This document shows, one piece after another, positions 16,751 to 22,244 of a stretch of DNA of 64,000 nt. The DNA is taken from contig NC_007498.2 of NCBI RefSeq assembly GCF_000012885.1, positions 2,542,001-2,606,000 of the forward strand, written 5' to 3'. Position numbers and translations under genes: made by a program. The number at the start of each line of letters is the position of its first letter. Position 1 is the first letter of the stretch. The stretch is from Syntrophotalea carbinolica DSM 2380 (lineage in GTDB: Bacteria; Desulfobacterota; Desulfuromonadia; Desulfuromonadales; Syntrophotaleaceae). The notes beneath the pieces were generated by a model. The model made no database searches, was not told where the DNA came from, and saw nothing but the letters and a program-made list of their open reading frames with translations.

Positions 16751-17584
16751 TTACTTTGAATTCAAGGCATCGAATACGGCTTGTTTCGCAACCTCGGGAA
16801 GGTTCTTCTCGGTCCAGGTTTTAAACTGAGCATCCGCCTGGGAAATGAACATTTCCCGACCGGCGATAGTCCTCCACCCGGCGGCAGCGGCTTCGCGCTG
16901 GAAGCGTGTGACAAAGGGAGTGTAGACAATGTCGTAAGCGATCCCTTTGCGACCGGCGAAAGCCTCCGCAGGATAACCGGTTTCATCTTCATACTTATGT
17001 TTCATTCCCAGAGGGGTAGCGTTGACGACGATATCCGCCGGCACGCTGGTGCGCTCTTCCCAGGGCACAACTTTGAGATCAAAAGTCTCGGCCAGAGCTG
17101 CGGGCAGGTCGTCGACGATATCGGTAACCGTAATATCATCGAAACCCAGGGTCTTAAGTCCGGCCGCAGCGGCTCGAGCGGCGCCGCCGGCACCCATAAG
17201 CAGCACTTTTTTCATCTCGGGCGCGGGGGGGTCGGCCTGCAGGGGGGACATGAAGCCCAGAACATCGGTGTTGTCTCCGCACAAAGCATCGCCGTCCCAA
17301 TAGATAAGGTTGCATGCACCAAGGGCTTTGACTCGATCGGTTACTTTGTCAAGAAGAGGAATGATGGCTTGTTTGTGAGGAATGGTAACGCAGCAGCCGC
17401 GGATGTTCAGCAGACGGACAGCGTCGATGAAGGTGGTCAGTTTTTCAGGTTCCGTATCCATAGGGAGCAGGACGCCGGGAAGATCCAGATCCTGGAAGGC
17501 GGTGTTATGCAGGAGCGGGCTGAGGCTATGCCCAAGGGGATAGCCGACAATGCCATACAGGTTAGGTGTGGTAGTTGCACTCAT
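16751..17584 (-). CDS. aroE: Shikimate dehydrogenase (shikimate/quinate dehydrogenase family)
   Basis: A 277-residue enzyme that interconverts 3-dehydroshikimate and shikimate with NAD(P). The substrate motif GHSLSP (Ser20, Ser22), catalytic Lys71 (TIPHKQ) and Asp107 (GDNTD) are present, with the dinucleotide loop GAGGAARA at 131-138. Two serines in the first motif favour shikimate over quinate, since quinate-active relatives often have Thr in the second position. The ATG follows GGAGG. Because it lies among catabolic-looking genes, it may run in the oxidative direction. Confidence 0.93.
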   Translation of the reverse strand: MSATTTPNLYGIVGYPLGHSLSPLLHNTAFQDLDLPGVLLPMDTEPEKLTTFIDAVRLLNIRGCCVTIPHKQAIIPLLDKVTDRVKALGACNLIYWDGDALCGDNTDVLGFMSPLQADPPAPEMKKVLLMGAGGAARAAAAGLKTLGFDDITVTDIVDDLPAALAETFDLKVVPWEERTSVPADIVVNATPLGMKHKYEDETGYPAEAFAGRKGIAYDIVYTPFVTRFQREAAAAGWRTIAGREMFISQADAQFKTWTEKNLPEVAKQAVFDALNSK

Positions 17585-17613
17585 GATATACCTCCAAACG
17601 GTTAGGGTGTTTC

Positions 17614-17659
17614 GAGGAATTCGCTAAGGCAAAGAGAGGGATTGCCTTGGCGAATCCTC
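17614..17659 (-). promoter_or_regulatory. Strong hairpin in the aroE leader
   Basis: Arms at 17614-17632 and 17642-17659 pair over 18 positions with one bulged A and one G-T pair, closing a 9-base loop. It lies 30 bp before the aroE start in the presumed 5' leader. On the plus strand it is followed by CTTTTTA, but no plus-strand gene precedes it. A cis-acting control of aroE or a transcription barrier is possible. Confidence 0.4.
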
Positions 17660-17810
17660 CTTTTTACGATTCCTTTCATAGGAACCAATCACTGTTTTTA
17701 AGTACCTGCCACGTTCTTGATTTACTGCGTATTTACAAAACAAACTTCAATTCAATTAAATCATTGAATATAAGATCAATAATCATAAAACAAACTGCTA
17801 TTCTATTTCA

Positions 17811-17879
17811 GTCCCAAGCAACTTTAACTTTTGCTCCCAAGTGACTTGAAGGTAAAGTCTTAAGCACCTTGAGAGTCAA
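17811..17879. promoter_or_regulatory. Three AAG-N3-CTT dyads phased at 23 bp, upstream of aroE
   Basis: The cores AAG-CAA-CTT, AAG-TGA-CTT and AAG-CAC-CTT start at 17816, 17839 and 17862, exactly 23 bp apart. The third is the extended form TCTTAAGCACCTTGAGA followed by GTCAA. Read on the minus strand, that one begins TTGACT and could overlap a promoter facing aroE, though no good -10 follows. The surrounding 17690-17940 is AT-rich and without a gene. Tandem binding of a dimeric regulator is inferred. Confidence 0.5.
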
Positions 17880-17975
17880 CAGCTTTTTAAAATCTATTTT
17901 TAGAAAATTACACATCTATTTTGAACATTTGTAATCAGGTACAAATCCTGAAAAACACAGGATAAAAACAAAAAA

Positions 17976-18002
17976 AACGCCCCGAGGAAACCTCGGGGCG
18001 TT
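17976..18002 (-). terminator. Rho-independent terminator
   Basis: A perfect 12-bp stem (AACGCCCCGAGG with its complement) has a three-base loop and on the minus strand is followed by an almost unbroken T-run (complement of 17965-17977). It ends a minus-strand transcript. It lies 14 bp after the structured segment at 18017-18151 and 444 bp after the enoate reductase stop. Confidence 0.85.
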
Positions 18003-18016
18003 GGGTAGTAAAAATT

Positions 18017-18151
18017 GCGGTCCGACGAACAGATACGGTTGTGATGGTGCTTAGGAGATAGGAGACATAGAGGCTGAAGACTCTACTTTCGTTCGCATGT
18101 CGATTAAGCTCACAAGGGGAGGAAGAACTCCGTAGCTGCCTATCGGACCGC
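18017..18151 (-). ncRNA. Candidate structured RNA (unclassified)
   Basis: A 135-nt segment folds as a nested rod. P1 is GCGGTCCGA (18017-18025) with TCGGACCGC (18143-18151), perfect. P2 is CAG-A-TACGG (18030-18038) with CCGTA-G-CTG (18130-18138). P3 is GTGA/TCAC plus GCTTA/TAAGC (18041-18053 and 18105-18113). P4 is GACAT/ATGTC (18064-18068, 18097-18101), with an apical AGAG/CTCT. The strand is chosen because a terminator follows on the minus strand. On that strand an asymmetric loop carries pyrimidine-rich CUUCCUCCCCUU. I could not match it to 6S, SRP, RNase P, tmRNA or a known riboswitch. It may be a separate sRNA or the 3' part of the reductase transcript. Confidence 0.45.
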
Positions 18152-18343
18152 CAGGGAAAAATGGCTAACTTGCTGTATATGATTGTCGTCGTGAAAACCT
18201 TCGAGACGTTGTTGTAAAAAAAGGGTGATGAAATCAACCGATAACATTTTCTTTGGGAGGAAGAAAACAGGTTAATACAAACATATATCTGTTACGAATC
18301 TTATATCTATCACCCGACATTCGCATATGTAGTTTTATTGGTT

Positions 18344-18377
18344 CCCCGCCCTGCAGTCCTTTGACTACAGGACGGGG
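18344..18377 (-). terminator. GC-rich hairpin after the enoate reductase
   Basis: Arms CCCCGCCCTGCAGTC (18344-18358) and GACTACAGGACGGGG (18363-18377) pair at 13 of 15 positions around a four-base loop, 69 bp beyond the reductase stop. No T-run follows on either strand. It may mark or protect the 3' end of the reductase mRNA. Confidence 0.45.
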
Positions 18378-18445
18378 TTCCGTGAATACCGCTTCCGTAC
18401 ATTGTAGGCAGTCACACCACCTACCCTGCGGCAGGTTTTACTGAA

Positions 18446-20359
18446 TTAAACGGCATAACCTGCCAGGAAACCCTGATGGATTGCATCCATAACCTTACCG
18501 GCCTTGATACAGTCACCCACCGGGGTCGCCGGAATTTCTTCGGAATACAGTGCCTGCAACAAAGGATTATAGGCTCTGTAGCCCAAGGAGATAACGAGCG
18601 TATCAAACCCTTCAAGCCAGCTTTCCTCTTTGTACTTATTCCGGATTTTGACCCGTTTATCGCAACCGATCTCGGCCACTTCGGTCTCCAGAATAGTCTT
18701 GACATTGAGTTCCTTGAGGCGCGGCATGAGGAATTTGCGGCTGCGGGCTTCCATATCCATGGCGATATCTTCACGCAGTTCCAGGATAGTGACATCCTTG
18801 CCCTGCTCGGCCAGGAATTCAGCCGTCTCGCTACCGACAAGCCCACCACCCATGATCAGAACTTTGTTACCTACGGGCGCGGTACCTTTAAGAGCGTCCT
18901 CGGCGGTAATGACCGGCGCTTCAGAGCAGAAACGGGGCACCACCGGAAGACTGCCGGTTGCAACCAGCGTAGCATCGGGGGCCATGGCCTTGATATCGTC
19001 CAGAGTCACTTCGCTATTGAGAACGACATTGACACCGGCCTTGGGCAGCACCTCTGCATAATAAGCAATCAGAGGAGTGTAGGGATCTTTATTGGGCGGC
19101 AACATGGCCACATTCACCAATCCGCCAAGCTCGTCATTCTTATCGTAAAGCGCGACTTCATGACCGCGTTCAGCAGCGGTAAGGGCCGCCTGCATACCGG
19201 CGGGGCCGCCGCCGACAACCACAACCCGCTTGGGACGATCGACTTTGGTCATGGGGTAGCGACCCTCATAACCGGTACGCGGGTTAACCGCACAGGTAAA
19301 GCCAACGGACATCTTGCCGACGCAACCGTCGTTACAGGCAACGCAGGGGCGGATTTCGGCGTCTTTTTTCTCTTGCATCTTGATCGGCGCATTGGGATCG
19401 GCAAGAAGCCCACGCCCCATCGACACAAGATCAGCTTTACCGGAAGCAAGAATGGCTTCAGCAGTCTCGCGATTATTGATACGACCGGCAACGGATACCG
19501 GCACCTTGGAACCGATAGCTTCCTTGATCGCTTCGGCGCCGTCGGCGTTCCAGCCGCGGCCAAGTGCACCCGAAGGGATGGTGTACTGGTTGCTTTCGGC
19601 CAGACCGGCGCTGAAATGCAAGGCATCGATGCCGTTTTCGACCATGATCTTGGCCATGTCTTTCGCCAATTCGGGAGTCACGCCGTTAGGCACGTATTCG
19701 TTAATACTGTAGCGGAACAGAATCGGGAAATCAGGGCCGGCCACGGAGCGGATGGCTTTGAGGATCTCCACGGGGAAGCGCATACGATTTTCCAAACAGC
19801 CGCCGTAGATATCGTCACGCTTGTTGGTGTACGGCGACATGAACTGAGCAATCAGGTAACCGTGGGCACCGTGGATTTCGATAGCGTCGAAACCAGCTTT
19901 GATGGCACGCTCGGCAGCCTTTTTGAAACAATCGATAATGTATTCGATTTCTTCAATGTCCATAACGCGAACATCGTCGTAAGGCGTAAGGCCCGGAACA
20001 TAAGACACAAGACGCCGGGGGTGCAGCGATGTCGGCGGATTGGCAATGCGACCACCGTGCATGAGCTGCAATGCAGCCTTGCCACCGTTGGCATGAATGG
20101 CATCGGTCAGCTTCTTGAACCCTTTGATCATCAGGTCGTCGGACAGACCCAGACCACGTGCGTAACAGTTACCGCCGAGTTCCACATAGCACGCCTCGAC
20201 AATCTGAAGCGCGACGCCACCCTTGGCCCTCTCGGCATGGTAATTAATCAACCGATCGGATACCTCACCGTTAATTGCGGCATGCCCTGTTACCATGGCA
20301 GGCATTATAATTCTGTTGCGAAGAGTCAGTTTGTTGATGTTGATGGGTGTGAATAACAT
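18446..20359 (-). CDS. Enoate reductase / 2,4-dienoyl-CoA reductase-like NADH:flavin oxidoreductase
   Basis: A 637-residue member of the FadH/BaiCD/2-enoate reductase group. Residues 1-335 form an Old Yellow Enzyme FMN barrel (HGAHGYLIAQFMSPYTNKRD from 163). Cys339, Cys342, Cys346 and Cys356 fit the 4Fe-4S site. Residues about 377-637 form the FAD/NAD domain (VVVGGGPAGM, 381-389). Such enzymes reduce alpha,beta-unsaturated acids or enones in anaerobes. Shikimate and 3-dehydroshikimate contain that bond, so reductive use of them is a natural hypothesis in this island. AAGGGATG precedes the ATG. Substrate not determined by sequence. Confidence 0.88.
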   Translation of the reverse strand: MLFTPININKLTLRNRIIMPAMVTGHAAINGEVSDRLINYHAERAKGGVALQIVEACYVELGGNCYARGLGLSDDLMIKGFKKLTDAIHANGGKAALQLMHGGRIANPPTSLHPRRLVSYVPGLTPYDDVRVMDIEEIEYIIDCFKKAAERAIKAGFDAIEIHGAHGYLIAQFMSPYTNKRDDIYGGCLENRMRFPVEILKAIRSVAGPDFPILFRYSINEYVPNGVTPELAKDMAKIMVENGIDALHFSAGLAESNQYTIPSGALGRGWNADGAEAIKEAIGSKVPVSVAGRINNRETAEAILASGKADLVSMGRGLLADPNAPIKMQEKKDAEIRPCVACNDGCVGKMSVGFTCAVNPRTGYEGRYPMTKVDRPKRVVVVGGGPAGMQAALTAAERGHEVALYDKNDELGGLVNVAMLPPNKDPYTPLIAYYAEVLPKAGVNVVLNSEVTLDDIKAMAPDATLVATGSLPVVPRFCSEAPVITAEDALKGTAPVGNKVLIMGGGLVGSETAEFLAEQGKDVTILELREDIAMDMEARSRKFLMPRLKELNVKTILETEVAEIGCDKRVKIRNKYKEESWLEGFDTLVISLGYRAYNPLLQALYSEEIPATPVGDCIKAGKVMDAIHQGFLAGYAV

Positions 20360-21150: not shown

Positions 21151-22227
21151 TGTTGGGTCCCGGATGATTCCATTAGCAGAAAAAGCTTCCCGTTATTCTT
21201 AGCTCGGGATATGCTTTTTGATATTCTCTGCGGTGAAATCTAAAGGAGTCTGACATGACGATACGGTTACACGCTAATGCCACAACGACCCCGAAAATCC
21301 GACGATATATCCAAGAGTCGGAAAAATCGCACAAGGCTTTAGCTAAAGAACTGGGCATATCCATTGACACGGTACGTCGCTGGCGCAAACGTGACGATGT
21401 TCACGATCGGTCTCATACGGCACACCGACTGAATACAACGATGACCGAAGCCCAGGAAGCTGTTGTCATCGAGTTGCGTCGCTCTTTGTTGTTGTCTCTC
21501 GATGATCTCCTGGTCGTCACTCGGGAATTTGTCAATGCTGACGTCTCTCGTGCGGGACTTGACCGTTGTTTGCGACGACATGGGGTATCCCGATTGGCGG
21601 ACCTGATCCCGAAAGAGGAAACGGCCAACAACAAGCCCAAAACATTTAAAAACTACGATCCGGGGTTCGTTCATGTCGATATCAAATATTTGCCACAGAT
21701 GCCGGACGAAACCTCTCGGCGTTACCTGTTTGTAGGCATCGACCGTGCTACCCGCTGGGTTTACCTGGAAGTGTGCAAGAGCAAATCCGCCCAAGCCGCA
21801 AAGGGCTTTTTGAATCGCCTGGTAGCCAAAGCGCCATTTGTGATCAAAAAATTGCTCACCGACAACGACAAGGCATTCACGGATCGATTTTCCACTGCTG
21901 GAGAGAGAAAGCCAACAGGGAATCATGTATTCGACAAAACCTGCGTTCAGCATGGTATTGAACATCGGCTTATTCCTCCACGCCACCCTCAGACCAACGG
22001 GATGGTTGAGCGATTCAACGGTCGCATCAGCGAGGTTTTGGCAACAACCCGGTTCGATTCCGCCGAAAATTTGGAGCAGACATTGTTACGTTATGGTTAT
22101 CTATACAACCAGCATATTCCTCAGCGAGCGTTGGGGCATAAAACTCCCATACAAGCTCTGAAGGATTGGCAAAAAAAGAAACCAAAACTTTTCCGTAAAC
22201 AGGTCAGGAATCATGCGGGACCTGACA
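21151..22227 (+). mobile_element. IS481-family insertion sequence, copy 2
   Basis: A 1077-bp element with the same inverted-repeat ends as copy 1 (TGTTGGGTCCCGG at 21151; CGGGACCTGACA ending at 22227). It is flanked by its own 6-bp duplication GCTATA (21145-21150 and 22228-22233). Orientation is opposite to copy 1. The different target duplications show two independent insertions rather than a composite transposon. Confidence 0.95.
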
Positions 22228-22244
22228 GCTATAGAATACTCTAA
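21255..22244 (+). CDS. IS481-family transposase, copy 2
   Basis: A 329-residue DDE transposase, the same as copy 1 through residue 324, with helix-turn-helix at about 27-44 and the acidic triad in FVHVDIKYLP, LLTDNDKAF and NGMVERFNG. After residue 324 (Asp) the frame leaves the element and adds Ser-Tyr-Arg-Ile-Leu from flanking DNA before a stop. The C-terminus therefore differs from copy 1 only because the target sites differ. AAAGGAG precedes the start. Confidence 0.93.
   Translation: MTIRLHANATTTPKIRRYIQESEKSHKALAKELGISIDTVRRWRKRDDVHDRSHTAHRLNTTMTEAQEAVVIELRRSLLLSLDDLLVVTREFVNADVSRAGLDRCLRRHGVSRLADLIPKEETANNKPKTFKNYDPGFVHVDIKYLPQMPDETSRRYLFVGIDRATRWVYLEVCKSKSAQAAKGFLNRLVAKAPFVIKKLLTDNDKAFTDRFSTAGERKPTGNHVFDKTCVQHGIEHRLIPPRHPQTNGMVERFNGRISEVLATTRFDSAENLEQTLLRYGYLYNQHIPQRALGHKTPIQALKDWQKKKPKLFRKQVRNHAGPDSYRIL

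Follow-up and report, generated by a model that had tools for sequence, protein, structure and literature searches.

We conclude that the structured segment between an enoate reductase gene and aroE in the DNA studied here (the window, a stretch of 64,000 nucleotides from Syntrophotalea carbinolica DSM 2380) belongs to a multicopy family, and we think that its members are probably sibling trans-acting sRNAs that occlude ribosome-binding sites. Fold, covariation, copy number, conservation of the motif CCUCC, terminators and a gene for Hfq are all computed observations, and they are the basis of this reading. The features of the locus are as follows.

18008..18159, minus strand: sRNA unit (type 1), consisting of 5' UUUCCCUG, the rod and 3' AAUUUUUA[CU]; limits taken from conservation among 10 type-1 copies
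18017..18151, minus strand: rod with a perfect 9-bp closing helix and nested inner helices, from direct pairing and the predicted fold
18002-17976, minus strand: intrinsic terminator, 12-bp stem and U run, from the terminator scan (z -6.44 when folded alone)
18116..18127, minus strand: 5'-arm anti-Shine-Dalgarno segment UUCUUCCUCCCC in a predicted internal loop, mean unpaired 0.68
18053..18065, minus strand: 3'-arm CU-rich segment UCUCCUAUCUCCU, predicted 0.32-0.43 unpaired in the window copy
18216..18268, minus strand: companion, an 8-pair hairpin with a CCUCCCA loop, a spacer, a weak hairpin and U7 (terminator-like), found upstream of 5 copies

The RNA unit, its terminator and its companion

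The minus-strand nucleotides 18151-18143 (GCGGUCCGA) are fully complementary to 18025-18017 (UCGGACCGC), as read directly from the sequence, and the 9-bp helix that they form closes a segment of 135 nt (18151-18017). The sequence-only reading had described this rod, its inward folding through nested helices and a strong terminator 14 nt beyond it, and all three are borne out. The rod alone has a predicted energy of -46.1 kcal/mol on the minus strand, with z -4.50 and 0 of 200 shuffles as stable, which also settles in its favor the comparison with shuffled sequence that had been proposed as a check. With the terminator included (17960-18160), z is -6.48 on the minus strand and -4.69 on the plus strand, and 0 of 200 shuffles do as well on either. 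The terminator has 12 pairs, a loop of 3 and a U run. Shuffles of the region are expected to yield 0.9 sites in the simple terminator scan, so the evidence for the terminator is the strength of its stem and not the bare scan match. Judged by the span conserved in relatives, the coordinates of the element need widening to 18159-18008 (152 nt). This copy scores 161.8 bits against the type-1 covariance model R1, a score that is high by construction since the copy is part of the model.

The gene on one side (18446-20359, minus strand) has the Pfam domains Oxidored_FMN and Pyr_redox and encodes a flavin oxidoreductase of the enoate-reductase type. The gene on the other side (16751-17584, minus strand) has the Pfam shikimate dehydrogenase substrate-binding domain (aroE) and starts about 390 nt beyond the terminator. 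The earlier placement of the RNA between these genes is therefore correct; the flanks, which had been called free of genes, are not empty, for a second small element lies at 18268-18216. A consensus scan of the region found no sigma-70-type promoter upstream of the window copy, and the single promoter-like site (1.5 expected by chance) falls between the terminator and aroE. A strong hairpin lies past the enoate reductase gene at 18337-18384; it has no U run on the minus strand and is thus not a typical terminator, and its similarity to F6 sRNA (25.8 bits against a cut-off of 46) is probably due to chance.

No Rfam 15 family reached its gathering score anywhere in the window, consistent with the earlier failure to recognize a family by eye. 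With E values up to 10, the region 17600-18440 gave 13 weak matches, all below cut-off, 10 of which overlap the terminator. On the 12 loci that carry 12 of the other 16 family members, only a tRNA scored above cut-off.

The small element at 18268-18216 is of a companion type that lies upstream, on the same strand, of five copies: the one in the window and L002, L003, L008 and L009. Folded by itself, it does not differ significantly from shuffled sequence (z -1.36; 22 of 200 fold as well), and the companion of L009 has a different predicted fold. With the window companion as query against the six genomes of the genus, it was present in three others, each time adjoining the RNA; that of L009 was missed and is visible in the alignment, and one weak 20-nt match was found elsewhere in G004. 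A scan for the hairpin pattern, with no stem mismatch allowed, in the window and 12 other stretches of its genome reported the companion and one other site, and did not report that of L009. The companion resembles a further sRNA, smaller than the rod and sharing its putative binding segment, as in tandem siblings elsewhere.

A family of RNAs with conserved pairing

A blastn search with the segment over 58 genomes gave matches in five, all of the genus: the window's own genome has four loci (the window included), three others together have five full loci, and the remaining one has a single partial locus. Once oriented, these 10 copies share a unit of 123-160 nt that starts with UUUCCCUGGCGG (UUUUCUUGGCGG in one) and ends with CCGCAAUUUUUA[CU]. 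Model R1 matched in 7 of 136 genomes of the order, 5 of them of the genus. L024 and L025, single R1 matches in two genomes of another genus, were dropped because their closing helix is broken, and we judged them to be chance. Searches of the order and the genus added L033, L030 and a shorter branch that we call type 2 (L031, L034, L035 and L038); in the window's own genome R1 finds five type-1 members and one of type 2. A type-2 model, R2, run on the same 136 genomes gave one extra copy, L050, in a sister genus of the same family (genome G009), where it stands after the same PadR-like gene as type 2 does in the genus. A more sensitive search of 14 genomes of the family added no copies.

We accept 17 members: 11 of type 1 (with L033), L030, four of type 2 from the genus, and L050. 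Sixteen are in five of the six genus genomes, six of these in the window's own, and one is in the sister genus. No member was found by the model searches in G003, a genus genome that is 99% complete. We did not count L039 (54 nt), L036 and L037 (on the opposite strand of counted members), L051 (the same as L033), or L019-L023, L026-L029, L032 and L046-L049, which are the same places as accepted members. A pattern scan of GTDB gave six loci, all at places already counted; its pattern fails to match some members known from the other searches, and GTDB may lack records close to the window's own genome. The plasmid records searched gave no match. Type-1 copies are 52-92% identical to one another. 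The copies linked to pocR or to the group of homologous genes described below share 70-79% identity with the window copy, except for the short one in G004 (63%); L006 shares 72% and L033 56%, and the family searches of other genomes gave no further copy that would be a counterpart of the window copy. Lengths of members differ by numbers that are not multiples of 3, which disfavors a conserved reading frame.

Pairing is kept among the copies. An RNAalifold consensus of the first ten type-1 copies has 22 pairs, 7 of them with double changes (a number reached in 1 of 500 shuffles), so the proposed search for compensatory changes in relatives was positive. In the same ten sequences, pairing is kept in 92.7% of cells and the covariation score is 0.333, compared with 0.227 (sd 0.023) in shuffles (0 of 500); when partners are slid, pairing falls to 32-40%. 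For helix 1, 93.5% of cells are paired and 6 of 17 pairs have double changes. Further pair types number 19, which is within the range of the shuffles, 80 of 500 having at least as many. These shuffles ignore relatedness and the structure was derived from the same alignment, and we regard the covariation as good but not final evidence for the helices of the rod. An alignment of 16 members keeps 12 outer pairs, 5 with double changes, and the inner helices vary among copies. Type 2 alone (four close sequences) has double changes in 0 of 22 pairs. The outer four pairs of the closing helix, GCGG/CCGC, are invariant in 15 or 16 of 16 members, UUUCCCUG precedes the closing helix in 10 of 11 type-1 copies, and AAUUUUU follows it in 15 of 17 members. 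The covariation, the minus-strand terminator and the absence of an Rfam match support the earlier suggestion of a separate sRNA.

The copies lie in different gene contexts, so that location gives no reason to link the RNA with aroE or the reductase. Five type-1 copies (in G000, G001, G002, G004 and G005) lie in divergent orientation to a gene that encodes a PocR-domain protein; domains were scanned in L008 (PocR, PAS) and the other neighbors were recognized by sequence. Three type-1 copies adjoin genes that are homologous to one another, and the one scanned has no Pfam match. This gene is on the same strand as the RNA in L007 and L010, where 47 nt separate the end of the RNA from the start codon downstream and no second terminator is seen between them; in L004 the homologue is downstream and convergent. 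Type 2 follows a PadR-like gene (below the Pfam cut-off) in all five genomes, out of 58 searched, that have a close form of it, and ahead of the PadR-like gene the window's own genome has one for an EamA permease. No type-2 match was found near the paralogues of the PadR-like gene at L083-L086.

Several other features were seen around these loci. At L085 (about 1830-2030), some two dozen tandem CAAGTGA heptamers lie between a PadR-like gene and an apparent glycyl-radical-activase gene. A crcB gene is downstream of the pocR-linked copy in the window's own genome (L009 2444-2872), and a small gene is upstream of the copy at L006 (677-1069). An insertion sequence with an rve transposase occurs twice in the window, at about 21155-22230 and 1661-2733, identical over 1,073 bases, and the RNA copies at genome positions 2934345 and 1085170 each have a further copy of it nearby, at distances of about 1.0 and 0.8 kb, respectively.

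Anti-Shine-Dalgarno segments and competing explanations

CCUCC is the core of the anti-Shine-Dalgarno sequence, and therefore RNAs that expose it could pair with ribosome-binding sites in general. All 17 members contain CCUCC, with 33 occurrences in total compared with 5.25 expected in dinucleotide shuffles (the members are related and their counts are not independent), and 16 contain CCUCCC. On the 5' arm, UCCUCC begins at nucleotide 32-39 of the unit in 16 of 17 members, and L050 has CUCCC at 28. This 5'-arm segment has a mean unpaired value of 0.74, compared with 0.47 for the whole RNAs, and is above its RNA in 14 of 17 members (the exceptions are L002, L008 and L009). In L002, L003, L008 and L009 it is predicted to be mostly paired (0.36-0.43 unpaired; in L009 within a GGAG/CUCC hairpin), and only the 3' arm, with a second UCCUCC, has an exposed copy (0.83-0.96). 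For type 2, a GCAUG-UCCUCCC-CAUGC hairpin appears in three of four predicted folds and in the consensus, and L030 has a predicted hairpin with the loop CCUCCUA.

Predicted exposure of the best CCUCC is 0.60-1.00 across the 17 members, lowest in the window copy and L033. Its average of 0.91 exceeds the 0.70 of other five-pyrimidine words, a comparison of the best of several with a mean that is biased upward. The window copy has a single CCUCC, a count equalled in 36% of shuffles, and its exposure is 0.62 compared with 0.72 for its own other pyrimidine words (L033 is similar, 0.60 and 0.70). Neither is beyond chance or other words, so the case rests on the family.

We propose that each RNA would be a rod with a conserved GC-rich closing helix, followed in most by AAUUUUU, which a second terminator hairpin often appears to back. 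Inside the rod, CCUCC segments rich in pyrimidines would be kept free of pairing, within an internal loop in type 1 and within a hairpin loop in type 2. The most likely partners of these anti-Shine-Dalgarno segments are the ribosome-binding sites of several mRNAs, and pairing would block initiation of translation, perhaps with Hfq, for which the window's own genome has a gene. Transcription, its strand, stability of the RNA, pairing in trans, the targets and their repression are all what we infer from the computed properties. Searches of targets found no single outstanding one: sites matching a 16-nt complement with up to three mismatches number 26, compared with 16 for a reversed control. Six sites have up to two mismatches; four are RNA copies and two, by eye, are in coding sequence. 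A Shine-Dalgarno-plus-ATG pattern has 6 matches, compared with 2 for the reversed control, and nothing decisive came of it.

The RNA could instead be a cis-acting leader (a riboswitch, attenuator or thermosensor) of a downstream mRNA, here aroE, with the terminator deciding on read-through. The order of structured domain and terminator fits, as do L007 and L010 with their short distance to a same-strand gene. However, contexts vary among copies: the neighbor of L004 is convergent, the sensor gene is divergent in the five pocR-linked loci and type 2 is placed after a gene pair. Moreover, aroE is remote from the terminator, and the gap between them holds the region's one promoter-like site. We therefore consider a leader quite unlikely. 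The earlier idea that the RNA senses a pathway metabolite finds no support, given the varied contexts, the distance to aroE and the anti-Shine-Dalgarno sequence kept in the loops. We assign similarly little probability to a non-autonomous, MITE-like mobile repeat whose fold is that of terminal inverted repeats with no RNA function. Copies are dispersed with sharp borders, and of the five type-1 copies that the window's own genome has, three are near copies of one insertion sequence (at about 0.8, 1.0 and 3.0 kb) and are all oriented alike relative to it; this sequence is absent around the two other type-1 copies and from 8 control stretches (136 kb, 17 kb each). Yet type-1 copies as little as 52% identical still keep their pairing through double changes, the position is stable across species (beside pocR in five genomes, beside the PadR-like gene in five), and the stretches that separate the RNAs from the insertion sequence have nothing in common except three matches of 12-17 bases, which is at chance level.

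Alternatively, the rod might titrate or scaffold a protein, for example a ribosome-associated one, with the closing helix as its binding site. Sequence kept in that helix beyond what pairing demands, and the nearly constant UUUCCCUG before it, would fit such a role. The conserved single-stranded parts are pyrimidine-rich, however, and GGA motifs on this strand are few by eye, which makes a CsrB-like sponge unlikely; the 6S RNA of this genome is located elsewhere. We see very little likelihood in a protein-binding RNA. It is highly improbable that the functional transcript is from the plus strand, with GGAGGA-rich loops, even though that strand has purine-rich AGGAG/GGGAGGAA segments and a fold that only 3 of 200 shuffles equal (z -2.70). 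The hairpin downstream of L008 has A5 before it and T3 after it, favoring the opposite strand there, and that downstream of L002 has A5 before and T7 after. In the window, the terminator U run and AAUUUUU belong to the minus strand, whose fold is also the more exceptional of the two.

Relation to known sRNAs

LhrC of Listeria and the csRNAs of pneumococcus are multicopy sRNAs with CU-rich single-stranded binding sites, as in the family described here, and are unrelated to it in structure and hosts. 6S RNA (RF00013) is rod-like and of similar length. We rejected identity with it: the window has no RF00013 match, and the genome's own 6S RNA is at 1265585-1265767 (87.7 bits). A sub-threshold 6S match at G000:C1:1717478-1717658 (40.9 bits against a cut-off of 46.4) may be a second 6S RNA.

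Closer parallels are found among sRNAs with anti-Shine-Dalgarno segments. NfeR1, of the αr14 family, is described as blocking a ribosome-binding site and as repressing ntrBC through three redundant segments that pair at the start region of ntrB (PMC10746234). Rhizobiales have RNAs with CCUCCUCCC in hairpin loops (PMC3927594), and the CcsR RNAs are a further parallel (PMC10253847). Association with a gene for a DUF1127 small protein (the CIN1 locus) is a feature of the αr14 and cuckoo RNAs (PMC10253847). As these accounts describe them, the αr14, cuckoo and CcsR RNAs resemble our family in their unpaired CCUCC anti-Shine-Dalgarno segments, often several per RNA, and in sibling copies with variable stems and a constant motif (PMC10746234, PMC3927594). 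Whereas the αr14 and cuckoo RNAs are described from alphaproteobacteria as separate hairpins with CCUCCUCCC loops, the RNAs here are from Desulfuromonadales and form one rod with a closing helix conserved in sequence and the motif UUCCUCCC. The three (or four) separate motif hairpins that characterize the αr14 and cuckoo RNAs are not seen; type 1 folds into a single rod, and type 2 encloses one or two loops of this kind within the closing helix. The NmsR siblings of Neisseria (NmsRA and NmsRB) are described as repressing by pairing of anti-Shine-Dalgarno segments at ribosome-binding sites (PMC5362039). They are tandem, with UC-rich anti-Shine-Dalgarno regions (one between stems, one in a loop) and predicted terminators, an arrangement that recalls the companion beside the rod; a rod does not figure in that description, and the likeness is one of description and not of sequence comparison (PMC5362039).

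The property that defines the functional class, an exposed and conserved segment complementary to the Shine-Dalgarno sequence, is present in all 17 members insofar as predicted folds tell. Our best reading is that the family may work like the αr14 and cuckoo RNAs and NmsR. We do not file it as a member of any of these because its architecture differs and no Rfam model matches, and we do not claim homology. The 2012 genome paper of P. carbinolicus annotates multicopy nucleotide sequences, with locations in its Table S1 and alignments in its Figure S1, and the copies may already be catalogued among them (PMC3543383). In the literature on sRNAs of this organism, we found no naming of these RNAs in the titles and abstract openings listed, a level of search that does not establish absence from print.

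We also entertain a broader and rather unlikely version, in which the family would be a lineage-specific global regulator of translation with up to six siblings per genome. Internal rearrangements, such as the GGAG/CUCC hairpin, would hide or expose the anti-Shine-Dalgarno mimics; one branch would be tied to PocR and another produced from the 3' end of a permease transcript, and together they would reset many mRNAs when the fermentation substrate changes.

If our preferred reading of sibling trans-acting sRNAs is correct, the Desulfuromonadales would have their own expanded family of RNAs that block ribosome-binding sites, seemingly distinct from those of alphaproteobacteria and Neisseria. An RNA regulator would then be available for study in a syntrophic fermenter, as would a case of duplicated sRNAs that keep a short binding segment while the scaffold drifts. 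We consider the unit, with its covariation and copies, well enough defined to be proposed as a new RNA family.
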